64,000 bases of DNA from Candidatus Jordarchaeales archaeon. GTDB taxonomy: Archaea > Asgardarchaeota > Jordiarchaeia > Jordiarchaeales > Freyrarchaeaceae. The notes beneath the pieces were generated by a model. That model had not been told where the DNA came from, ran no database searches, and worked only from the letters and a program-made list of their open reading frames with translations. The stretch is taken from contig JAWAHN010000003.1 in NCBI GenBank assembly GCA_038889235.1, positions 115,703 through 179,702 on the forward strand, given 5' to 3'. The translations under genes were made by a program, and so were the position numbers. Shown piece after piece: positions 4,463-35,452 of this stretch (within the stretch, counting starts at the first letter, position 1; each line of letters starts with the position of its first letter).

Positions 4463-5374
4463 CTAAAGGATTTTGTATAGCGGGGTTTCCTTGTTTTCCA
4501 ACTCGTAGCCTTCCACTACGAGGCTGTATGTTAGAACAGCGTCGACTGTTGCGCATGCTGGGAAGACCACCTCAGCTAGGCTCACAGGCCCGTACAGTAT
4601 GAAGTCTGCTCCAAAGCACCGGGCGAAAACGCACAGGGACACTAGAAGTGTCCTCTTGGCATGAGGGGCTATGTTATCTATTTTTCTTGATCCGCCCAGC
4701 GCGTTTGCAGGTGAGCAGCCGCTCGGGAGACCCGTCGACTCCTTAACCGCCGTTATCGACTCGGCCGCGTACGCCATGCTCACCACGTCTAGGAGCGATA
4801 CGTCCACGAGCACGTTTTTAACGCCTGCTTTCTCCGCTTTCGAAAGAAGTGAGTCGCCGTCGCGGAGCAGCTTCAGCTTTTCTTCGGGTGAAAACTCTGA
4901 CTCGCTGAACGTTAGGAGGACGGCGTTCTCAACTCCCAGTTCTCTTAAGGCCTCAATTTCCTTTGGGCTAGAATCTGGAGTTATCGAGTTATACACGACG
5001 CGCTCCTTTAGACCTACCTCGACAGCGTGACTGCACGCTTCGAGCCGGGCCTCAGTTGAAGGGGAGTCGACGAGTATTGGGGCATCAATCACAGTTGACA
5101 CGAAGTCTATGTAGTTGATGAGGGCGTTGCCGGTTCGCCCCACAACGTCAACCATGCACGGGTTACCCGTGGCGTCGGAGAGCTCCTCCTGTTTTAACAG
5201 GAGTGACTCAGCTCTTCCTCGGTCGAAGGCTCCCTTAACTGGGTCTACCACAAGCTTGTCCCCTTCGTAGAATATAGTACCAACAAGCACTGTAGGGTTC
5301 TCTCCAAGCTGTCCTCCGACGCGGACGCCAGCTATCCTGAAAACCTTTTGTTTTGACTTGAAGCGGAGAAGCAT
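4463..5374 (-). CDS. MtrH-family methyltransferase (methyl-corrinoid:pterin), copy 1
   Basis: The 303-residue protein matches the H subunit of tetrahydromethanopterin S-methyltransferase. Visible family features are the N-terminal IAGVRVGGQ segment, VGTIFYEGDKLVVD, a PILVDSPSTEARLEA segment and GLPSGCSPANALGG. MtrH is the cytoplasmic methyltransferase of the Mtr complex. Stand-alone homologues outside Mtr operons are thought to move methyl groups between a corrinoid protein and H4MPT or H4F. None of the other Mtr subunits is encoded here, so this copy is the stand-alone type. It is the last gene after a corrinoid protein (11-base gap) and a flavoprotein, probably in one operon. Confidence 0.9.
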   Translation of the reverse strand: MLLRFKSKQKVFRIAGVRVGGQLGENPTVLVGTIFYEGDKLVVDPVKGAFDRGRAESLLLKQEELSDATGNPCMVDVVGRTGNALINYIDFVSTVIDAPILVDSPSTEARLEACSHAVEVGLKERVVYNSITPDSSPKEIEALRELGVENAVLLTFSESEFSPEEKLKLLRDGDSLLSKAEKAGVKNVLVDVSLLDVVSMAYAAESITAVKESTGLPSGCSPANALGGSRKIDNIAPHAKRTLLVSLCVFARCFGADFILYGPVSLAEVVFPACATVDAVLTYSLVVEGYELENKETPLYKIL

Positions 5375-5385
5375 TATCTTGTCTC

Positions 5386-6018
5386 CTAGCTTACTCCCAG
5401 GAGCTTTTTGGCGAGCTCGACTGCGCCCTCCGCGTCGGGCGCCCAGCCGTCTGCCCCAACACTTTCAGCCCATTCCTTCGAGGTCACGGCCCCGCCGACG
5501 ATCACCTTGTACTTGTCTCTAACACCCATCTCCTTAAGTATCCTGATTAGTTCCTCGAACTTGGCTAGGGCCGGGGTGAACACTATTGATACAGCTATTA
5601 GGTCAGCTCCGACCTCTTCAGCCTTCTCGTAGAATGTCCATGGTTCAAGGTTTTCACCCAGATCGTAGACTTCGAAGCCGTTTATCGTTAGAAACATGCT
5701 CACAAGGGTCTTCCCGATGTTGTGCTTGCTGAGGAGTGTTCCTATGACGACTTTTTTCTTAGCTCCAGCCTTCTCCTTCGGCAACACTTTTTCAACGAGG
5801 TCTATGCACTTCTTAGCGATCTTGCTTCCCTTAATTAGGTCAGGGATGAAAGCCTGCCTCTTCTCAAACTTGGCGCCTAAGTCGTAGAGCCCCTTGACAA
5901 CCCCCTCCTCGATTATCTTCACGGGGTTAACCCCCTCCTCCAAAAGCTTCCTCGTTAACTCCTCCGCCTCCTCTCTAATCTCAGCTATCGCCCTTCTAAG
6001 ATCTGAGACTTCAACCAA
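5386..6018 (-). CDS. Corrinoid (B12-binding) methyl carrier protein with altered DxHxxG motif
   Basis: The protein has the two domains of MtaC/MttC-type methyl carriers: a helical bundle (about residues 1-85) and a Rossmann-like cobalamin domain. The cobalt-ligand His is kept in GTLLSKHNIGK, but the usual Asp of DxHxxG is replaced by Ser and the loop looks one residue shorter. The lower-ligand side keeps VIVGGA. I chose the TTG at 6016-6018 (210 aa), which has GGGGTGGT just upstream; a longer reading from 6090 would overlap the upstream gene. It sits between a flavoprotein and MtrH copy 1, so it probably carries methyl groups from the divergent MtmB-like enzyme to MtrH. Confidence 0.9.
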   Translation of the reverse strand: MVEVSDLRRAIAEIREEAEELTRKLLEEGVNPVKIIEEGVVKGLYDLGAKFEKRQAFIPDLIKGSKIAKKCIDLVEKVLPKEKAGAKKKVVIGTLLSKHNIGKTLVSMFLTINGFEVYDLGENLEPWTFYEKAEEVGADLIAVSIVFTPALAKFEELIRILKEMGVRDKYKVIVGGAVTSKEWAESVGADGWAPDAEGAVELAKKLLGVS

Positions 6019-6058
6019 GCAACCACCCCATAATGAAAAGTTTGGGCCACGCTTTTTT

Positions 6059-7747
6059 TCATTTTTTCGCGAGGTCTCTTGTGAGCTCACTCGCCGCTAT
6101 GTAGCCGAAGCATATCCCTGCGCCTATAGTTATGCCGCTGCTCGGGTATCCTCCGCCCGAAACAGCAGCTGTGACGTTGCCAGCCGCGTAGAGCCCTGGT
6201 ATAGGCTTGTCGTTGTAGTCGAGAACTTGCGCCTTCTCGTTTATCTTCAAGCCGCCACACGTGCCAAGGCACCCGGGGTACACTTCAATGGCGTAGAATG
6301 GTGGCTTCTCTAGTGGTCCGAGAGTCGGGTTAGGCTTCCAGTTGGGGTCACCGTAGAACCTGTCGAAGTGGCTCTCCCCGCGGTGGAATTCCGGGTCGAC
6401 GCCCTCCTTGGCGTACTTGTTGAACCTTTCAACGGTCTCTTCAAGCCCGTCGGGGTCTATTCCCGCTTTCTTCGCGAGGTCTCTGATCGTGTCAGCCCAC
6501 TTGAAGGGTGGATCAGTCGGCTTAGCCCCTGGGTAGAGGGTGAATACGGTGTAGCTTTGGTGGACGCGCTCGTCGAAAATCATCCACGCTGGAATGTTTG
6601 TGTACTCGTGCTTATTCGGATCCCAGGTGTGCATAGCCCTTGTGAAGTCAAAGTAGTTTGCGGCCTCGTTAGCGAAGCGCTTGCCGTACTTGTTGACTAT
6701 TATCACTCCGGGCAAAGCCTTCTCGAAGAACACTCCCCTGTAGTAGGGTTTCCCGTCGTAAGTGTCGCCCGTGTAGACCGTCGGGAACCACCACGCCTCA
6801 CTCATAAGGTCAACTTGCGCTCCTACCTCCATCGCCATGCGGTGTCCGTCCCCGGTGTTGTGGGGCGGAGACATGGGCCCCCTCATAGGCCCCCTTAGGA
6901 AGGCTGAGGGCATTTTTTCATGCCACTCGAAGCCACCCGTCGCTAGGACCACTCCTTTCCTAGCACGGATCCTGAGCTCTTTTCCCTCGTGCTCCGCTAT
7001 CACGCCGACAACTCTTCCGTTCTCGACGACAAGCTTCTTGGCTGGAGTTTTGTACTTGATCTCTATACCTCTCTCGTAGCAGGAGTACAGCAGGCGGGCT
7101 ATGAGCGCCGTCCCCCACCCGTAGACCCTTTCTTTAAGTCTCTCGTTTATTAGGTTGAAATCCCACTTGCCGCTCATCATCGTTGCTAGCCCGCCCCACT
7201 CAACGAGCTCTTCGAGCAGTATCGGTAGACTGACGGGGGAAAGCCTTACCCGCTCGGCAACCTCTTTCGGTAGAGAGTTGAAGCTTATAAGTTGTGCCTC
7301 CATCACCCTTCCACCCTTCACTCCTCCCTCCCACTCGGGGAAGTAGTCTGGCATCAGTTTGACATGTGACCACTTGACGTGCGTGTTCTTCTCCAGGTAG
7401 TCGCAAGCCTCGTTTACCGTCCTAAGGTACGTTCTTATCAGCTCGTCGCTCGATCTTCCAGCAGCTATCGCCTTCATGTATTTGAAGGCCTTTTCTTCGG
7501 AGTCGGGAGCCTTAACCCACTCCTTTTTAACGGGATCCCAGAACTCCGGCTGGAACCCCTCCCTGATGAACCTGTTATTCGGCACCCAGACGGCTCCCCC
7601 GGAGACAGCGCTTGCTCCACCAGCCTTATCCGTTTTCTCGAGAACGACGACCTTGGCGCCCCTATCGTGGGCGACTATGGCTGCAGTCAGGGCGCCCGCG
7701 CCGCTGCCGACTACCACAACATCTACTTCAAGATCCCACGGCAACAA
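6059..7747 (-). CDS. FAD flavoprotein, ketosteroid-dehydrogenase/fumarate-reductase-like
   Basis: With a TTG start at 7745-7747 behind GGGAGGGG the protein is about 562 residues. The N-terminus has a dinucleotide fold (VVVVGSGAGALTAA) and the EKTDKAGGASAVSGGAVW segment typical of 3-ketosteroid dehydrogenase and fumarate reductase flavoproteins. The C-terminus ends with GLYAAGNVTAAVSGGGYPSS and GITIGAGICFGYIAA, which closes the FAD site. No heme or signal peptide is seen, so it is probably cytoplasmic. It heads an operon with a corrinoid protein and MtrH and is divergent from an MtmB-like gene. A role in oxidising or reducing the substrate, or its demethylated product, is inferred; the substrate is unknown. 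Confidence 0.85.
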   Translation of the reverse strand: MLPWDLEVDVVVVGSGAGALTAAIVAHDRGAKVVVLEKTDKAGGASAVSGGAVWVPNNRFIREGFQPEFWDPVKKEWVKAPDSEEKAFKYMKAIAAGRSSDELIRTYLRTVNEACDYLEKNTHVKWSHVKLMPDYFPEWEGGVKGGRVMEAQLISFNSLPKEVAERVRLSPVSLPILLEELVEWGGLATMMSGKWDFNLINERLKERVYGWGTALIARLLYSCYERGIEIKYKTPAKKLVVENGRVVGVIAEHEGKELRIRARKGVVLATGGFEWHEKMPSAFLRGPMRGPMSPPHNTGDGHRMAMEVGAQVDLMSEAWWFPTVYTGDTYDGKPYYRGVFFEKALPGVIIVNKYGKRFANEAANYFDFTRAMHTWDPNKHEYTNIPAWMIFDERVHQSYTVFTLYPGAKPTDPPFKWADTIRDLAKKAGIDPDGLEETVERFNKYAKEGVDPEFHRGESHFDRFYGDPNWKPNPTLGPLEKPPFYAIEVYPGCLGTCGGLKINEKAQVLDYNDKPIPGLYAAGNVTAAVSGGGYPSSGITIGAGICFGYIAASELTRDLAKK

Positions 7748-7770
7748 ACAACCCCTCCCATCCAACTGTA

Positions 7771-7785
7771 GAAACTGAAAGTTTC
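7771..7785. promoter_or_regulatory. Short inverted repeat in divergent promoter region
   Basis: GAAACT-GAA-AGTTTC forms a perfect 6-base inverted repeat with a 3-base spacer, about 25 bases upstream of the flavoprotein start. It lies in the 134-base region between the two divergent units of methyltransferase cluster 1. It could be an operator for the minus-strand operon. Chance occurrence is possible. Confidence 0.3.
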
Positions 7786-7833
7786 TCTCTAAAAAAAGTT
7801 TTCCGAGAAAGGATTTTTCAAAAAATGGGAAAC

Positions 7834-7843
7834 GCATATATGC
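7834..7843 (+). promoter_or_regulatory. TATA element of the MtmB-like gene
   Basis: The palindrome GCATATATGC is centred about 44 bases upstream of the GTG start at 7882. A TATA box here would place the transcript start near 7864, leaving a short leader that contains the ribosome site (CCGGGGGG at about 7868-7875). Confidence 0.45.
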
Positions 7844-7881
7844 TTGGAGCACCTCATTAGAGAGATTCCGGGGGGTTTAGT

Positions 7882-9237
7882 GTGTCTTTGTTATGGGAAG
7901 TTTTGGAGAGGTCTCAAACTGGTCCTCTCATGAAGGAGGAAGAGTTTGAAACTGAGTTTTTCCCGTCAAAGATAAGGGAGATTGTGAAGGAGCACGGGAT
8001 TAAGTATGACCCGGAAGAAGTCGTTATGACTGATGCGAACATGGCTGACGAGATCTTCGAGGCGGGACTTGAGCTACTACTGGAGGTTGGACTATACAAC
8101 AAGGACACGAAGAGGATAGTGAAGTTCACGGAGGAGGAGATCAAGGAGGTTCTCGCTACGAGGAAGAGGGAGCTCGTTCTCGGGGAGGGGAGAGACCAAA
8201 TAGTCCTGAGGCCTAGGAAGCCGGAGGACAGGGAGCCTCCTAAGACTTTCCTGCCCGCCGGCATACTGACCAGTAACATCGAGCTGTACAAGGCCTATGT
8301 GCTCTCAGCGGCAAAGGAGCCTGTTGCAGATGGACTCATAGCCCTCCCCCTCCAGGGGATAGGTGAACTGAAACCTGTGAGCGGGACTCCCAGCGAAACC
8401 CTCCTCGGACTGACTGAAGGCTTCATCCTCAGAGAAGCAGCTGTGCGCGTAGGTAGGCCTGGAATGTTCCTAGGGATCCCCATGAGCGTGTCGAGCGCAA
8501 AGGCTGTGATGGGCTCTTTCCACCCTGCAGGTTACACGAGGTACAACTGTATGTGCCCGGTTCACATAATACAAGACATGAGGATTGACTATGACAGGCT
8601 TAACTTGGCTTTTTTCGCCCAGCAGAACGGGATAAACCCGTGGATCAGCAGCTGCCCCACGATGTACGCCTATATAGGTGGACCGGAAGAGGCGGCGGTT
8701 GAAGGGATAGCTCACGTCCTCGGAATGATGGCCTATTCCGGTGGCTCCTTTGCTCAAGCCATGAGCGCGACTATTCAGGGGAGGTACGAGGGGAGAGATG
8801 TTTTCTGGGCTAACTCGGCTCAAGCACTCGCCGCTGAGAGGAACATTAGGGTTCCATGGATAAGTTTCGGCGGTGGTGTTACGGGGCAGCAGGCGACCGA
8901 AGTGTCCTTCTATTCAATCGCCGCCACAGTTATAACGAACACTATTTCAGGCATGGAGGGGATGTGGCTTACGGGGGGTGTGCCGGGGATTGAGGGAAGG
9001 TGGGGTGGAGAAGTGGCGAGGGCTGCGGCTGGCATAAAAGTAAGTGACGGAGTAGAGATAGTGAAAGAGCTGCTTAAGAGGTACGAGGACAAGGCGAAAG
9101 TCGGGTTGCCGAGCGAGACGCTAATACTAGAAAAGTACGACATGAAAACTCTTACACCGAAGAAGGAGTACGTCGAACTCTACTCGAGGATGAAGAAGGA
9201 ATTACAGGACATGGGCCTAGAGTATGAAGCGTGGTGA
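7882..9237 (+). CDS. Monomethylamine methyltransferase (MtmB) homologue without pyrrolysine
   Basis: The 451-residue protein has the length of MtmB and shares its segments: MADEIFEAGLELLLEVGLY, RIVKFTEEEI, ELVLGEGRD, a GRPGM segment near residue 192, and a C-terminal GGEVARAAAG plus VKTLTPTEEY-like tail (MKTLTPKKEY). MtmB moves the methyl group of monomethylamine to a corrinoid protein and uses pyrrolysine, encoded by an in-frame UAG. Here the reading frame is uninterrupted, and the matching region (about residues 215-225, GYTRYNCMC) has ordinary residues. The substrate is therefore probably not monomethylamine. Start is GTG with a G-rich ribosome site. Divergent from the flavoprotein-corrinoid-MtrH operon, which should supply its methyl acceptor. 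Confidence 0.85.
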   Translation: MSLLWEVLERSQTGPLMKEEEFETEFFPSKIREIVKEHGIKYDPEEVVMTDANMADEIFEAGLELLLEVGLYNKDTKRIVKFTEEEIKEVLATRKRELVLGEGRDQIVLRPRKPEDREPPKTFLPAGILTSNIELYKAYVLSAAKEPVADGLIALPLQGIGELKPVSGTPSETLLGLTEGFILREAAVRVGRPGMFLGIPMSVSSAKAVMGSFHPAGYTRYNCMCPVHIIQDMRIDYDRLNLAFFAQQNGINPWISSCPTMYAYIGGPEEAAVEGIAHVLGMMAYSGGSFAQAMSATIQGRYEGRDVFWANSAQALAAERNIRVPWISFGGGVTGQQATEVSFYSIAATVITNTISGMEGMWLTGGVPGIEGRWGGEVARAAAGIKVSDGVEIVKELLKRYEDKAKVGLPSETLILEKYDMKTLTPKKEYVELYSRMKKELQDMGLEYEAW

Positions 9238-26789: not shown

Positions 26790-27506
26790 ATGGAGCGTGA
26801 AGCTATGAGCTTCGTGGAAAAGTTTAAAGAGATGGGCTTTAAGGTTTTGGAGAACGAGCCATTAGATCCTGAGACGTTAATTAAGGTGCTTGTTGCTGGG
26901 ATAAAGAGCAACGAGGAAGTTTACGGCCCAATTTTCTCGAAAAGGGCCGTTGATTACGCTTTAAAGTTTATTTCCGGCAAAATCGGTGAGAGCGCGCCAA
27001 GCAATATTGAGACACTAGAACAGCTGACAGAGTACCTAGTATCGATCGTAGAGAAGTATCCTAGGGCATATTGTGCCGTTCTGTACGCTGAAATAATGGT
27101 TGAAGCGGAGCTTCAAGGCAGAATCGGAGCGGCAATTCAGATAAGTGAGATTAAGTGGGCTAGAGGCCTCCTAGGAGGCGCGAAGAAGGATGTTAATGTC
27201 GACGTAGAGAAAATCATTTTGGACATGAATAAGACGACGCGTGCTCTGAAGATCAACCCTAATGATGGAAGCGGTTACAGGGTCAACGAAGACGGGACGC
27301 TGGACATGTTCTTTGTAAATTGCTACTTCATGGATGTTTGCAAGCAGGTGTTGAAAGAAGGCCATAGGAGGGTTGACGGGAGAATGTACTGTCCGTCGTC
27401 CTCCGGAATCTGCAGGTACTTCAGAGGGGTTACAGGGCGCGAGTGGGACTACGACTTGTTGGAGTTTGACAAGCCATATTGCACGTCTAAAATCTACATG
27501 CTCTGA
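26790..27506 (+). CDS. Conserved-looking hypothetical protein with Cys-rich C-terminus
   Basis: No family recognised with confidence. The 238-residue soluble protein is mainly helical in its first 150 residues. The last 70 residues carry six Cys (VNCYFMDVC, MYCPSSSGICRYF, KPYCTSK), which suggests metal or Fe-S binding, or a V4R-like or hydrolase-type Cys site. ATG at 26790 may be leaderless; a second ATG at 26805 has GGAG upstream. It lies upstream of methyltransferase cluster 2 on the same strand, about 225 bases away, so a link is possible but not shown. Confidence 0.55.
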   Translation: MEREAMSFVEKFKEMGFKVLENEPLDPETLIKVLVAGIKSNEEVYGPIFSKRAVDYALKFISGKIGESAPSNIETLEQLTEYLVSIVEKYPRAYCAVLYAEIMVEAELQGRIGAAIQISEIKWARGLLGGAKKDVNVDVEKIILDMNKTTRALKINPNDGSGYRVNEDGTLDMFFVNCYFMDVCKQVLKEGHRRVDGRMYCPSSSGICRYFRGVTGREWDYDLLEFDKPYCTSKIYML

Positions 27507-27674: not shown

Positions 27675-27731
27675 CGGTAACAAAATTGGATTTGCAGGGC
27701 TTAGGGAAAAGGGGAGGTGAGGTGGGCTTTT

Positions 27732-28652
27732 ATGTTTAGGTTTACAGCCGAGCAAAAAACGTTCAACATAGCGGGAGTTAAGGTCGGCGGCCAGCCGGGA
27801 CAGGTCCCCACTGTTATGATAGGCACTATTTTCTATCACGGAGACAAGCTTGTTGTAGACGAGCGGGAGGGTGTCTTTAACAGATCGGCTGCCGAGGAAG
27901 TGCTGAGAAAGGAGGAGGAGATTTCCCTCAGGACTGGGAACCCACGCATAGTCGACGTCTGTGCCTCTCATCCTCAAGCGTTCGAGAAGTTCATCGACTT
28001 CGTGGCTGACGTTGTGGAAGGACCTTTCTGCATCGATGGCACCACGGCTGACGTTAGGATAGCGGGAGCGAGGTATGTTATGGAGGTTGGCTTGTCGAAC
28101 CGTGTCATATACAACTCCATAAGCCCAGACGTGAAGGATGCTGAGCTTCAAGCAATCAAGGACGCTGGAATTAAGTCCGCGGTGCTGCTGCTCCTCAACG
28201 TTAGAAATCCGCTTATCAGTGGAAAATTCGAGGTAATCGATGAACTATTGCGAAAGGCTTCGACCGCAGGCGTGGAAAACGTCCTCATAGATACTGCTAC
28301 CATAGACATATTAGACCCCGGCCCCGTATCTAAAGCGATTTACTTGGTGAAAGAGAGGTATGGCTACCCGGCAGGTTGCGGCGCGCACAACGCCATCGAC
28401 ATATGGCGTAAGCGCACGAAGCTGAGCCCAGGCGTAAAGTTCTCAGGGACCATTCTGGCAAACGTCCTACCCGTGGTCATGGGGGCAGACTTCCTCCTCT
28501 ATGGACCCATAGAAAACGCGGCAAAAATATACCCTCCAGTGGCGCTTGCAAATGCGTACGCGGCGTACACTTTGTGGCAGGAGTACGGTGTAAAGCCCCC
28601 GGCGGGGAACCACCCGTTTTACAACCTTAGCAAAATAGCTGCCATAGAGTAG
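27732..28652 (+). CDS. MtrH-family methyltransferase (methyl-corrinoid:pterin), copy 2
   Basis: The 306-residue protein is a paralogue of MtrH copy 1 in this window, with FNIAGVKVGGQPGQVPTVMIG, GTIFYHGDKLVVD and GYPAGCGAHNAIDIW. It would transfer methyl groups between a corrinoid protein and a pterin. I chose ATG at 27732 because a GGAGGTGAGGTGGG ribosome site lies just ahead; an upstream GTG at 27717 is inside that site. The chaperonin-like gene follows after 14 bases on the same strand, so both are probably cotranscribed. The partner corrinoid and MttB genes are on the opposite strand just downstream. Confidence 0.9.
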   Translation: MFRFTAEQKTFNIAGVKVGGQPGQVPTVMIGTIFYHGDKLVVDEREGVFNRSAAEEVLRKEEEISLRTGNPRIVDVCASHPQAFEKFIDFVADVVEGPFCIDGTTADVRIAGARYVMEVGLSNRVIYNSISPDVKDAELQAIKDAGIKSAVLLLLNVRNPLISGKFEVIDELLRKASTAGVENVLIDTATIDILDPGPVSKAIYLVKERYGYPAGCGAHNAIDIWRKRTKLSPGVKFSGTILANVLPVVMGADFLLYGPIENAAKIYPPVALANAYAAYTLWQEYGVKPPAGNHPFYNLSKIAAIE

Positions 28653-28666
28653 AAACAGCTATCTCT

Positions 28667-30415
28667 ATGAAGCATCCAACTCTCTTCGAGGGAGTGGACG
28701 TGGAGCTGGGTGGCGGGCTAGCTCATGTTCTTTCTAAGGCTTACAGTAGGCTGGATGACGTCAGGAAAACGAACATTGCAGTCGCAGTGGTTATCTCTGA
28801 GATTTTGAAGACGATGATTGGTCCTAAAGGAATGAGTAAGATGCTGGTTACTGAGACCGGAGACGTGCTAGTGACTAGTAGTGGCAGGGCTATGCTGGAG
28901 AGGCTGAGGGTTTCCCACCCTGTTGCTAGAGGCTTGGTGGATGTTGCTAGGGTCCAGGGCGAGCTCACCGGCGATGGAACGAAAACGGCAGTGGTGGTTG
29001 CAGGGGCGCTGCTGAGGGAGGCGGAGAAGCTCATGGATCAGAAGGTTCACGTTACAACCATAATTGAGGGCTACAGGAAGGCGGCTGTCAAAGCCGTGGA
29101 AGTTCTAGAAAGGCTTGCAATTAGAACGTCTGCTGAAAATGAGGAGGTTATAAGGAGTGTCGCAAGAACGTTCCTTAGAGGACGTTTTAATGAGGACGTC
29201 CAGGACCATGTTGCCGACCTGATGCTAAAAGCGGTCCTTCTCACCCACAAAGGGGGGAAAGATGCATCCATTGAAGATGAAGTCTGCTTCGTCAAAAAAG
29301 CCGGTTCAGACGTGAGCGCTTCCGAATTGATTCGCGGCGTTGTTATATGCAGGGAGAAACCTCACCCGAGGATGCCCAGCAAGATGACTAATGTTAAAGT
29401 TGCACTGCTGAACTGTTCGCTTCAACCCTTCCTGCGTAAAAGCGAAGAGTGGAAGAAGGAGTACTTGATTGGCGAGGAAGGTCGACTGGCGGCTTTCATA
29501 AAAGGTGAAAGCGAGATTTACAGGGAAATTGTGGGGCGGGTTAAGCGAGTGGGTGTGTCCGCCGTCTTTTGCCGCAAAAGAATTAGTGAGAAACTGGTTA
29601 GTTGCTTCGCGAGCGAGGGCCTCCTAGCCTTTGAACTTGTTTCGGAGGAGGACATTGCTAGGCTTACGAGGGCAACCAGGGGGCGGGTGGTTTCGTACGT
29701 AAATGACTTGACAGAGAGAGACTTAGGTGTAGCGAGACTCGTGGAGTTCCGGAAAATCGCTGGTGACGAAGTCTTGGTCGTAGAGGGGGGTGAGGGGTCT
29801 ACCGCTGTTACACTGCTCCTGAGAGGGGGAACTACGGAAGCTGTTGAAGAGCTTGAGAGAATGACGAGAAACGGGCTTAAAGCCTTGTCTCTCGCCCTTA
29901 AGGATGGAAGAATCTTGCCGGGCGGTGGGGCTACAGAGGTCGAGGTCTCTAGGGAGTTGAGAAGTTTTTCGAGAGCATTTACCGGCAAGGAGCAACTAGC
30001 CATAGAGGCTTTTGCAAAAGCCATTGAAACAATTCCGAGGATCATCGCGGAGAACGCTGGACTCAAAGCCAGCGACGTTCTACCGGATCTATACGCTAAG
30101 CACGCCGCCGGCGGCAGGAATTTCGGGGTGGACGTTGTCAAGCGCGAGGTCGTCGACACAGTTAAAGCCGGATTGTTCGACGTGTTTGAAGTTAAGAGAC
30201 GCGCAATTCTAGCAGCCTACGAGTTCGCTACGATGATCCTCCGCGTGGACGACGCTGTTGTCGCGAAGACGAGTGAATTGAGGAAAATGGAGGAAGAGAA
30301 GGTGAAGGAAAGGAAGAGGTTTCTCGACGAGAAAATCAGGAAGGTGCTAGGAAAGGACGAGGAGCTAATGAAAGTGAGCAAAAAACTTACAAGCTTAAGC
30401 CCAGCGTTGGACTAA
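28667..30415 (+). CDS. Divergent group II chaperonin (thermosome-like) with altered ATPase residues
   Basis: The 582-residue protein has all three thermosome domains: IGPKGMSKMLV at about 51, apical ELIRGVVICREKPHPRMP at about 220-237, and equatorial C-terminal LAIEAFAKAIETIPRIIAENAG. Two ATPase Asp positions are changed: the normal SNDG loop is T70-S-S-G, and the catalytic Asp before the GGG loop (normally LNDA) is N402 in TRNG. GDGT at 102-105 is kept, but the next residue is Lys106. The tail is long and charged (KVKERKRFLDEKIRKV) and lacks the GGM repeats. Altered residues match positions that in GroEL (D52, D398) control hydrolysis. It follows mtrH copy 2 by 14 bases; a folding or scaffold role for the methyltransferase system is inferred. 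Confidence 0.9.
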   Translation: MKHPTLFEGVDVELGGGLAHVLSKAYSRLDDVRKTNIAVAVVISEILKTMIGPKGMSKMLVTETGDVLVTSSGRAMLERLRVSHPVARGLVDVARVQGELTGDGTKTAVVVAGALLREAEKLMDQKVHVTTIIEGYRKAAVKAVEVLERLAIRTSAENEEVIRSVARTFLRGRFNEDVQDHVADLMLKAVLLTHKGGKDASIEDEVCFVKKAGSDVSASELIRGVVICREKPHPRMPSKMTNVKVALLNCSLQPFLRKSEEWKKEYLIGEEGRLAAFIKGESEIYREIVGRVKRVGVSAVFCRKRISEKLVSCFASEGLLAFELVSEEDIARLTRATRGRVVSYVNDLTERDLGVARLVEFRKIAGDEVLVVEGGEGSTAVTLLLRGGTTEAVEELERMTRNGLKALSLALKDGRILPGGGATEVEVSRELRSFSRAFTGKEQLAIEAFAKAIETIPRIIAENAGLKASDVLPDLYAKHAAGGRNFGVDVVKREVVDTVKAGLFDVFEVKRRAILAAYEFATMILRVDDAVVAKTSELRKMEEEKVKERKRFLDEKIRKVLGKDEELMKVSKKLTSLSPALD

Positions 30416-30440: not shown

Positions 30441-31130
30441 TCACTTTTTACCTGTCGCCGGCTTACCCTTTTTTCGCTCTGCGAGAAGTTTTTTCGCCTT
30501 TTCGAGGGCTATCATCACGTCGGTAGCGTAGTCGTCGGCTCCGCACTCCCTACACCACTCTTCACCAGGGAAAGCACCGCCACCAACCATGTAAATGTAC
30601 TTGTCTCTGAGCCCCCTCTTCTTCAAGGCTTCTCCTAGGAACTTTTGCTGTTGAAGCGTATTGCTCATGAGTGCGGAGGCACCAATAATGTCCGCGTTGA
30701 CTTCTTCAGCCTTCTTTATGAAGTTTTCCACAGGCTGATCTACGCCTATATTGTACACCTTGAAGCCCGCTGCAGTAAACACGGCGGTGACGATGTTAAT
30801 GCCAAGACTGTGAATGTCACCCTCAACCGTCCCTATAACCATCACGCCAAGGGGCTCCGGCCTCTTGTCCTCGGGTATGTATTTGAGAAGTTCGTTCGTC
30901 GCTTTCTCCATGACTTGCGCTGCCAGCATTAGGAAGGGTAACGGGATCTCACCTCTACCAAACTTGTCGCCGACTTCCTTTATCCCGGCTGTAAGCCCCT
31001 TAGTGATGGCTTCTACAGGGTCTATCTGGGCTGATATCGCCTCTTTCACTGCAGCCATGGCGGCTGCCTCGTCGAAGTTTACGACAGCCTCGGCCAGCCT
31101 CTTTAGTATCGCTTCTTTCTTGGCGCTCAT
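30441..31130 (-). CDS. Corrinoid (B12-binding) methyl carrier protein, MttC-like
   Basis: The 229-residue protein has a helical bundle (about 1-90) and a cobalamin-binding domain with the intact motif GDIHSLG, whose His is the lower cobalt ligand, plus a glycine-rich GGGAFPG segment. It would accept the methyl group from the MttB-family enzyme encoded just upstream (4-base ATGA overlap) and pass it to an MtrH. In contrast to the first corrinoid protein of this window, the DxHxxG motif is standard. The C-terminal tail is Lys-rich. Confidence 0.93.
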   Translation of the reverse strand: MSAKKEAILKRLAEAVVNFDEAAAMAAVKEAISAQIDPVEAITKGLTAGIKEVGDKFGRGEIPLPFLMLAAQVMEKATNELLKYIPEDKRPEPLGVMVIGTVEGDIHSLGINIVTAVFTAAGFKVYNIGVDQPVENFIKKAEEVNADIIGASALMSNTLQQQKFLGEALKKRGLRDKYIYMVGGGAFPGEEWCRECGADDYATDVMIALEKAKKLLAERKKGKPATGKK

Positions 31131-32820: not shown

Positions 32821-34755
32821 GTGAAGTGGATGAGCGGAGATGTAACCGTTGTTTTTCAGCCTGAAGGAAAGCGTGTCACAGTGAAGCCTGGGGGGAACCT
32901 GCTGGAGATAGCTAAGCTTGTAGGCGTAGACATCACCTCGGTGTGTGGTGGTAGAGGGACTTGTGGCAAGTGTAAGGTGGTGATCGAGGAGAACAGGGGG
33001 AATGTTTCCCCGCTGACTGCAAAGGAGGGGAAAATCCTGTCCCCCAGCGAGGTTGCTAAAGGGTATAGGCTGGCATGTTGCACGTTCGTTGGTGGCCAAG
33101 TCGTCGTTAAGGTGCCCGAGGAAAGTAGGACGGGGCGGCAGCGGCTTCAAGTTGAGGGAGTAGAAACACCTGTGGCTTTGAATCCACCTGTGTGCAAATA
33201 CTTTTTGAAGCTGCCTAAGCCGTCCCTCAGCGATCCTAAGCCTGACGCCGAGATACTACTCGGCGAGCTGAGACGCCAGGGTGTGGGACGAGATGTGGAA
33301 ATAGACTTTCACGTGCTGCAGACTTTGCCGGTAGCTCTCAGGAAGAAAGATTGGAGTGTAACTGTCGTCATGTGGAATGGCAGGGTCATAGGTGTGGAGC
33401 CCGGTGATACGACTAGGAGAGCGTTCGGCTACGCTGTCGATATAGGGACGACGAAGCTTGCCGGTTACTTGCTCGACCTCTTAACCGGGAAGGTTGTCGC
33501 CGTGGAGTCAATGATGAACCCGCAGATATCTTACGGCGAGGACGTCATAGCCAGGATCACGTACGCGTCTAAGGGGTTAAGGGAGCAGAGGAGACTTCAA
33601 AAAGTTGTCATAAGCGCCATAAACAAGATGCTCGACTCGCTCCTTAATAAGACTGGCGTGAAGAGGGGGGAGGTTTACGAGATGGTTGCCGTTGGCAACA
33701 CCGCAATGCACCACCTCGCTCTGGGCATATGTCCAAAGTATTTAGCCCTGTCACCCTATACGCCAGCCAACAGGAGGGGGGTAAACGTCGCCGCCCGCAA
33801 TCTCGGTGTGAGGATAAACCCGAATGGTAACGTCTACTTTCTCCCCATTATAGGTGGCTTCGTGGGCGCTGACACCATGGGCGTACTTTTAGCGACGGGA
33901 ATGTACAAAAGGGATGAAATGTGCCTAGCGATAGATATTGGGACCAATACGGAAGTCCTTTTGGGAAACAAGGACGAAATATTGGCGTGCTCCTGTGCGT
34001 CGGGCCCGGCTTTTGAGGGGGCACACATAAAACACGGAATGAGGGCGGCCACTGGCGCCATCGAGAAGATAAAGATAGATGAGAAGTTTGAAGTTAAATA
34101 TGAGACCATAGACGGCGAGAAGCCTCGCGGGATATGCGGCTCAGCTATGATAGATTTTCTGGCGGAAGCGCTAAAGGCGGGGTTAATTGACTTCACCGGC
34201 GTTTTCAATAGGGAAATAAGCTCGGACAGGCTGCGCAGCGGGGAAAGAGGACTTGAATTCGTAGTGGCATGGGGAGAGGAAACGTTTACAGGTGAGGACA
34301 TAGTTATAACTCAAAATGACATTAAGGAGATCTTGCTGGCTAAAGCAGCGATACACACGGGGATCAGCATCCTTATGAAGAAGAAGGGTTTAACTGAGAG
34401 GGACATCGACGTCTTCTTCGTCGCCGGAGCATTCGGCTCATACATAAACCCGGAGAACGCTAGGATAATAGGAATGTACCCCGAGCTGCCGTTGGAGAGA
34501 GTACGCGTAGTGGGTAATGCTGCCGGTACTGGTGCTCGCATGGCCCTCTGTTCCAGAGACGTAAGGGAGACCGCCGAAACCCTTGTAGGAAAGGTGAAAT
34601 ATGTTGAGCTCGCCGCGGAGGCGGGCTTTCAAGCGGAGTTCCTTAACTCGTACTTCCTGCCTCACGCTGACCTCTCAAGATATCCTGAAACAAGTGATCT
34701 TCTCAGAAAGCTGGGTAGATACCCCAAAAGGCCTCCAGTATGCTTCCCAACCTGA
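32821..34755 (+). CDS. Corrinoid reductive activator (2Fe-2S ferredoxin plus ASKHA ATPase, RACo/DUF4445 type)
   Basis: The 644-residue protein has an N-terminal plant-type ferredoxin domain with Cys 42, 48 and 51 (CGGRGTCGKC) and 86 or 87 (RLACC), a linker, and an actin-like ATPase part with YAVDIGTTKLAG, LAIDIGTNTEVLLG, ASGPAFEGAHIKHGM and VAGAFGSYI. Such proteins use ATP to drive electrons into inactive Co(II) corrinoid proteins. Both the MtrH/MttB clusters in this window would need it. GTG at 32821 and ATG at 32830 are possible starts. It is divergent from the mttB-like operon and probably shares its control. Confidence 0.93.
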   Translation: MKWMSGDVTVVFQPEGKRVTVKPGGNLLEIAKLVGVDITSVCGGRGTCGKCKVVIEENRGNVSPLTAKEGKILSPSEVAKGYRLACCTFVGGQVVVKVPEESRTGRQRLQVEGVETPVALNPPVCKYFLKLPKPSLSDPKPDAEILLGELRRQGVGRDVEIDFHVLQTLPVALRKKDWSVTVVMWNGRVIGVEPGDTTRRAFGYAVDIGTTKLAGYLLDLLTGKVVAVESMMNPQISYGEDVIARITYASKGLREQRRLQKVVISAINKMLDSLLNKTGVKRGEVYEMVAVGNTAMHHLALGICPKYLALSPYTPANRRGVNVAARNLGVRINPNGNVYFLPIIGGFVGADTMGVLLATGMYKRDEMCLAIDIGTNTEVLLGNKDEILACSCASGPAFEGAHIKHGMRAATGAIEKIKIDEKFEVKYETIDGEKPRGICGSAMIDFLAEALKAGLIDFTGVFNREISSDRLRSGERGLEFVVAWGEETFTGEDIVITQNDIKEILLAKAAIHTGISILMKKKGLTERDIDVFFVAGAFGSYINPENARIIGMYPELPLERVRVVGNAAGTGARMALCSRDVRETAETLVGKVKYVELAAEAGFQAEFLNSYFLPHADLSRYPETSDLLRKLGRYPKRPPVCFPT

Positions 34756-34846: not shown

Positions 34847-35452
34847 TTGGAGGTGGTTAGCGATAGGCTGAGGAGGGTTGTAGAGTTCCTTCAGACTGTT
34901 CAAGGTGTGAGGAAAGTAATAGTTCTAGGTAACGTTGAGCGTGAAGCCCTTCTTCAAGCCGAGTTAAGGGGCGAGAAAAGCGTCATAGGAGGGCAGGGGT
35001 TCAATGAAGGGGTGAGGGAAGCACTTTCCAGGGAGTTTGTTGTCGCATGCTCCACTGATAAACGCTTTAAGTGGCCTAAGGGGCCTTACGTCGTCCTAAA
35101 GAGCGGGGACACTGTTGTCGGCTTCATAACGGATGACGTTGAAAACATAAAGCGACAGTGTAACGAAGAGACTTACGTTTTCGGGGGTAGCTTGATACTC
35201 TTCCCAGACAGAATTAGGAAGTTGAAGGATAAGGAGAAGGCCACGATTTTCGTCTATAAGGGGTTTAAAATGGAGGCGCTTGAGGCAGAAGCGGATGTGA
35301 AGGACGCGGTTTTAGCTTTCTGCACGCGGGCCGGTGACGCGTATCTAAAAAGGCTGCTTGGTGAAAGTGAAGATGCGAGCATCGGGACAATAGTAGTAGG
35401 TTTTAACCTTGAAAAAAGAGGAGAGGACAAAGAGTTGGAGGGAAAGTGTTAG
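34847..35452 (+). CDS. Hypothetical protein, 201 aa, next to the corrinoid activator
   Basis: No family recognised. The protein has an N-terminal region with RKVIVLGNVEREALLQ, a middle segment YVVLKSGDTVVGFITDD, and a mixed alpha/beta pattern without membrane helices. It starts with TTG at 34847 behind GGTGGGCTGGTGA and lies 91 bases after the activator on the same strand, so it may be cotranscribed and serve the methyltransferase system. It is convergent with a 3-hydroxyacyl-CoA dehydrogenase gene and the two stops are almost adjacent. Confidence 0.65.
   Translation: MEVVSDRLRRVVEFLQTVQGVRKVIVLGNVEREALLQAELRGEKSVIGGQGFNEGVREALSREFVVACSTDKRFKWPKGPYVVLKSGDTVVGFITDDVENIKRQCNEETYVFGGSLILFPDRIRKLKDKEKATIFVYKGFKMEALEAEADVKDAVLAFCTRAGDAYLKRLLGESEDASIGTIVVGFNLEKRGEDKELEGKC

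Follow-up and report, generated by a model that had tools for sequence, protein, structure and literature searches.

The chaperonins of archaea are regarded as all-purpose folding machines, and Asgard archaea are the microbial group closest to eukaryotic cells. What, then, does a chaperonin whose catalytic aspartates are missing do inside a methyltransferase locus of such an archaeon? The window analysed here, a stretch of 64,000 nucleotides from a Candidatus Jordarchaeales contig (JAWAHN010000003.1), holds one such gene, called X below. Its host genome (2.14 Mb, 95% complete) carries exactly two ordinary thermosome genes besides X; it also encodes a true actin, which scores 658 bits against an actin chain with the label HC1 and about 560 bits against eukaryotic actins, and the host is thus an Asgard archaeon.

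Sequence and fold of the chaperonin

A first-pass annotation of this DNA had placed a full-length, thermosome-like protein beside mtrH, corrinoid and MttB genes. Pfam assignments bear out the neighbours (Table 1), and X is an open reading frame in which Cpn60_TCP1 (PF00118) spans residues 43-534 (E = 4.7e-140). The protein scored above the NCBIfam cut-offs of NF041082 (477.5 versus 450) and NF041083 (471.5 versus 400) but below that of TIGR02339 (476.6 versus 671.1 bits), and an origin from the CCT chaperonins was ruled out, the best score against the NCBIfam CCT equivalogs being 302 bits (gamma) versus a cut-off of 553. Its closest solved structures, by sequence and by fold, are archaeal thermosomes (Mm-cpn and KS-1 among the fold matches). 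The region that aligns with the built-in lid, the helical protrusion of the apical domain, is present, with a helix at residues 271-295 in an AlphaFold model that is weak over residues 1-104 and served for the fold and the tail only. Contigs of named genomes scanned with the X protein returned ordinary thermosomes only, at 38-42% identity.

X had also been said to lie 14 bases behind mtrH, which is correct for the ATG at 28667. The true start is probably the GTG at 28700, because the starts of two homologues with a complete 5' end align there and a ribosome-binding-like motif, GAGGGA, precedes it; the gap would then be 47 nt, and in relatives it is 53 nt (G001) or 61 nt (G003).

Table 1. Features of the methyltransferase locus, of X and of the fused chaperonins in related genomes
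Feature	Position	Strand	Basis or remark
238-aa protein of a lineage-expanded family, upstream of mtrH1	26790..27506	+	no Pfam/NCBIfam match
mtrH1, MtrH-family methyltransferase directly upstream of X	27717..28652	+	PF02007 and NF002142 over cut-off
X, divergent group II chaperonin, 582 aa from ATG 28667	28667..30415	+	open ORF; Pfam match
Codon 72, Ser for catalytic Asp (GroEL D52); TSSG versus TNDG	28880..28882	+	alignment
Codon 106, Lys in GDGTKT; Thr in canonical thermosomes	28982..28984	+	alignment
Codon 173, Arg for nucleotide-sensing-loop Lys (Lys in 100% of 35 canonical)	29183..29185	+	alignment
Codon 402, Asn for catalytic Asp (GroEL D398); TRNGL versus IHDAL	29870..29872	+	alignment
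Charged C-terminal helical tail, DEKIRKVL motif	30272..30412	+	in X and M, absent from canonical thermosomes
MtbC-like corrinoid protein, convergent with X	30441..31130	-	PF02607, PF02310; NF041607 below cut-off
MttB-family methyltransferase, ORF without internal amber codon	31127..32632	-	PF06253
RACo/AcsV-like reductive activator of corrinoid proteins (2Fe-2S and ASKHA)	32821..34755	+	PF14574, PF17651, PF17650, PF00111
201-aa protein, homologue adjoins X in G007	34847..35452	+	ORF
D1-D2, two complete fused chaperonins, single ORFs of 1057-1076 aa	L124:8867-12040, L125:375-3575, L126:303-3533	-

Alignment with 35 canonical thermosomes, all of which carry Asp in both the GroEL D52 and the GroEL D398 columns (35/35), confirmed the Ser and Asn that had been reported at these two sites of X. 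No compensating Asp adjoins residue 72 or 402 in this alignment, and the loss stands. Both changes are real, but they form an incomplete list, since Lys106, Arg173 and a charged tail also distinguish the protein. The Lys after GDGT occurs in 12/12 proteins that cover the site among X orthologues and the members of a related Asgard branch, M, described below (one M protein reads GDSTKT), and the nucleotide-sensing-loop position is Phe, Ser or Tyr in the sisters of the window's X. Two further canonical Asp residues are replaced by Ser and Thr at positions 57 and 62, the latter lying in the stem-loop region, where Asp is found in 100% of canonical subunits. In the apical domain the canonical CQKGIDD reads CRKRISE, with X-specific invariants, and AVRRxKKSD is replaced by AFELVSEKD-like or ALDLVGEKD-like sequences. 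Each of the 11 X and M proteins whose sequence extends to the C terminus carries an RK helix motif there (for example DEKIRKVLEKEE or QEKVRKYLNKKD), and no other chaperonin in the comparison has it. X retains the P-loop, GDGT, GGGA and an acid at the GroEL D495 (ribose-site) position, and 82 of the 174 columns conserved in at least 90% of canonical thermosomes are intact. Judged by its sequence, X is a group II chaperonin by descent that lacks the catalytic feature of group II chaperonins.

Several other genes at or near the locus deserve mention in their own right. The family of the 238-aa protein is almost confined to the order in which X occurs, with one match elsewhere among 59 genomes; G007 has about 40 copies, often in tandem (six or more in a row on G007:C49), and the family carries a conserved NCYFxDxC-like motif, the G003 copy being broken by stops. 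The mttB gene of G003 (L034:6341-7863, minus strand) is split into two overlapping frames by a frameshift or an assembly error. A second methyltransferase cluster in the window (4463-9237) comprises mtrH2, a corrinoid protein, a FAD protein and an MtmB-family protein, and contains no chaperonin. The MtmB-family protein (7882-9237, PF05369) is full-length and has no in-frame stop, and is therefore apparently without pyrrolysine.

Distribution, history and linkage of X and M

A profile of X run over 228 Asgard genomes set apart eight genomes of one order. Full-length copies scored 1020-1099 bits and the next score was 581; the copies in G001, G002 and G004 are partial, and all copies are full length unless cut by contig ends. 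Chaperonins found in MttB clusters of other Asgard families, around distant MttB homologues, form the branch M. Its profile recovered five members (G116, G117, G130, G153 and G181; 742-1029 bits), with X proteins at 345-412 and canonical proteins near 330. X and M formed one clade with support of 100/100 against a mainly canonical background and 100/99 when other divergent paralogues were included.

The loss of the two hydrolysis Asp residues, as claimed before, applies to the window's X and to most X and M proteins, but it is not universal. M proteins have neither Asp: the first site is Lys, and the second is Gly, Ser or Thr. The X orthologues read (first/second site) S/N in the window's genome (G000), N/N in G003 and G001, -/S in G002 and E/A in G005 and G006, whereas G007 retains D/D and G004 (D/-) at least the first Asp. 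Equal-weight parsimony gives two changes at the first site, one loss plus a regain in G007; without regain, three losses are needed. Because G007 has both residues, the loss was either repeated or followed by regain, and from the sequences at hand we consider repeated loss likelier, since G007 would need to regain both Asp and G004 has the first. An mtrH1 orthologue is present in G000-G003, G005 and G006 and absent from G004 and G007. This matches the loss of Asp perfectly, and a tie between the two was set aside, only two independent contrasts being available.

The linkage takes different forms in the two branches. Among the genomes of the window's genus, X comes after mtrH and converges on the corrinoid-MttB pair; it lies in the mttB cluster in 3/4 genomes, while the arrangement in G001 is consistent and split across contigs, and in G002 a contig break falls between mtrH and X. 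In G007, X adjoins the corrinoid-MttB-RACo genes, and mtrH is missing from the cluster. G005 and G006 have an MttB-corrinoid-RACo-mtrH cluster, with X on a different contig from mttB and mtrH. M lies directly downstream of RACo on the same strand in 5/5 genomes, separated from it by some 36 to 112 nt, in clusters that contain MttB, a corrinoid protein and MtrH. A strict mtrH-chaperonin pair as the conserved unit did not survive this neighbourhood survey: it is kept in the window's genus only, M adjoins RACo and not mtrH, and X is unlinked in G005 and G006.

The broader tie of the chaperonin to the methyltransferase locus fared better. A cognate mttB was found in 14 of the 228 Asgard genomes (13 at E <= 1e-60 plus a fragment in G001), and X or M occurs in 13 of these 14 and in none of the other 214 (Fisher 2.7e-20, a value that overstates the evidence because relatives sharing ancestry are counted as independent). 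The two occur together in six separate lineages, namely the order with X, G116, G117, G130, G153 and G181; in the remaining carrier, G128, whose genome is 74% complete, no M gene was detected. Chance linkage was ruled out by this co-occurrence. A search extended to 393 archaeal genomes, of which about 165 lie outside the phylum, revealed no other X or M protein, and the best non-Asgard matches (G298 and G236) are ordinary thermosomes with TNDG, GDGTTT and no tail motif. That X and M are confined to genomes bearing mttB points to a helper reserved for the assembly of a single enzyme system.

Divergent chaperonins are tied to MtrH/RACo loci more than once, because the f2 genomes have a second, paralogous locus with divergent chaperonins of its own: mtrH, RACo and DsrE/DsrH-like genes accompany the fused chaperonins D1-D2 and a chaperonin Y, and in G007 a corrinoid protein also. 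D2 has lost the second (GroEL D398-type) Asp, and in G005 and G006 the first as well.

Other observations in these and further genomes concern separate genes. A chaperonin paralogue, Z, of the f2 genomes (L128:7576-9183, L129:5444-7045, L130:7782-9413 and L131:5990-7597) carries GDGGK and has Asn in place of the GroEL D398-type Asp; its gene neighbourhood is conserved and lies apart from methyltransferase genes. Two more divergent Asgard chaperonins, L177 (G038:C357) and L172 (G024:C27), have lost only the GroEL D398-type Asp, to Asn and Ser. A 458-aa protein without Pfam or NCBIfam match is encoded in two copies, 88% identical, on L124 (1267-2643 and 6725-8101, minus strand); each copy adjoins a small protein, which is SCP2-like at the second copy, and one copy lies beside a corrinoid protein. 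The 458-aa protein is possibly a new corrinoid methyltransferase.

Proposed role and alternative explanations

The reading we prefer, at a probability of about one half, is that X serves as an ATP-holding, non-cycling, client-specific subunit in mixed thermosome rings, working for one methyltransferase system. X and M would then be an Asgard group II chaperonin family dedicated to MttB, the corrinoid protein, MtrH and RACo. X would bind ATP and barely hydrolyse it, would join the cell's own ordinary subunits, thermosome A and B, in mixed rings, and would present a client-specific surface through its altered apical face and C-terminal tail, thereby helping to fold or assemble one product of the cluster. 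Because it always adjoins M and has an ASKHA domain of actin-like fold, RACo is the likeliest candidate client, with MttB second. Actin is the classic client of CCT, the eukaryotic relative of these chaperonins, and the ASKHA domain has the actin fold.

The first-pass annotation had offered an ATP-locked cage, a scaffold and a mixed-ring folding partner; by sequence these look alike, and we favour the mixed-ring partner. In Mm-cpn the D386A substitution leaves ATP bound but not hydrolysed, and growth is no longer supported (PMC5019054), whereas an Asp-to-Ala change in a single CCT subunit permits assembly and, for the most part, luciferase folding (PMC5413064); a ring made of X alone would therefore be expected to stall, and a mixed ring would not. 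We caution that the Thr at position 62, where canonical subunits have the stem-loop Asp, could hinder mixed rings, and that the presence of both Asp in G007 means that non-hydrolysis is not essential to the family role everywhere.

The most serious competitor, which we nevertheless hold to be unlikely, is that X builds its own homo-oligomeric ring or single-ring assembly, binding ATP once and then staying closed or open as a holdase, scaffold or protective cage, with the tail as docking site and the oxygen-sensitive Co(I) corrinoid protein or RACo as cargo. The loss of both hydrolysis Asp residues together with the sensing Lys, the conserved linkage to the cluster, and the conserved charged tail, given that chaperonin C termini project into the cavity, would all suit such an assembly. 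However, loss in several lineages, one of which has both Asp, suggests a relaxed subunit over a designed lock, and a homo-ring carrying D386A is unable, as a chaperonin, to sustain growth.

Less probable still is a general role for X as a third, gamma-like thermosome subunit, its methyltransferase link reflecting mainly the co-inheritance of a transferred block. The host's two ordinary subunits plus X, the location of X off the cluster in G005 and G006, and a patchy distribution that suggests transfer are consistent with this, but co-occurrence holds where linkage is broken in those same two genomes and across six lineages, and the client-face residues are family-specific.

We think it improbable that X still hydrolyses ATP through substitute residues, such as Lys106 or the Glu at position 72 in G005 and G006, and is an ordinary but client-specific chaperonin. 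The remainder of the ATP pocket is intact, and Lys occupies the same GDG site in thermosomes with both Asp (L045); yet the substitutes vary (S, N, E or K at one site and N, S, A, G or T at the other), an inconsistency that is expected if hydrolysis is not selected.

Estimates of dN/dS for X ranged from 0.11 to 0.19, compared with 0.03-0.05 for ordinary thermosomes and 0.02-0.03 for MttB. In the G000-G003 comparison X gave 0.12, the ordinary thermosome genes 0.048 and 0.042, MttB 0.027 and the corrinoid protein 0.033, all Nei-Gojobori counts that are rough here, synonymous sites in this pair being near saturation; in the G005-G006 pair, X gave 0.19 and an ordinary thermosome gene 0.028. The rate of X is thus 2.5 to 7 times that of ordinary thermosome genes in the same genomes, and X is functional and under purifying selection. 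That X is a decaying paralogue without function is hardly credible: it evolves faster than its paralogues and has lost several motifs, but uncut copies are full length, tail and co-occurrence are conserved, and such dN/dS values across a large synonymous divergence largely refute a pseudogene.

A family that tracks a single methyltransferase system and no longer hydrolyses ATP would be evidence that subunits serving one client and not cycling can evolve in the archaea nearest to eukaryotes. X and M would offer a natural system for how non-hydrolysing subunits work in mixed rings, a question that CCT and the BBS chaperonins pose, and for the laboratory production of Asgard methyltransferases X is a candidate factor that has so far gone unrecognised.

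Comparison with known systems

X resembles the archaeal thermosomes (Mm-cpn, KS-1 and that of T. acidophilum) in fold, domain order, lid, P-loop, GDGT and GGGA; it differs from them, at about 36-44% identity, by the loss of the Asp pair and the sensing Lys, the change of Thr to Lys after GDGT, a new apical face and the RK-motif tail. The same kind of Asgard methyltransferase genes is known from the MttB-MtbC-MtrH clusters of Freyarchaeia and Atabeyarchaeia, in a report in which the word chaperonin is absent (PMC11291895), and our literature searches found no published description of such a chaperonin.

In setting, the nearest parallel is MmoG/MimG, GroEL-like paralogues that, like X, stand beside and are apparently dedicated to one enzyme, in this case in monooxygenase operons; MmoG is needed for soluble methane monooxygenase (PMC7994243). 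X and M share the trait of a chaperonin placed in its enzyme's gene cluster across species, with G005 and G006 as exceptions. MmoG and MimG are bacterial group I proteins, whereas X is an archaeal group II protein in a corrinoid methyltransferase cluster and has lost its hydrolysis residues.

In mechanism, CCT/TRiC tolerates single subunits with little or no turnover in a mixed ring, but the catalytic Asp, which was mutated in all eight CCT subunits in that study, is kept there and lost in X (PMC5413064). X also falls far below every NCBIfam CCT cut-off. Among eukaryotic chaperonins, BBS6, BBS10 and BBS12 join CCT subunits to assemble the BBSome, and their ATPase motifs are degenerate. They are described as diverged group II offshoots (PMC2846930), and in this they are like X; unlike X, they are eukaryotic and have no operon link. 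We tentatively suggest that a catalytically silent, client-specific Asgard subunit may join the thermosome for the sake of one metabolic complex, as an archaeal counterpart of the BBS-CCT assembly in which hydrolysis would have been lost repeatedly and in parallel.
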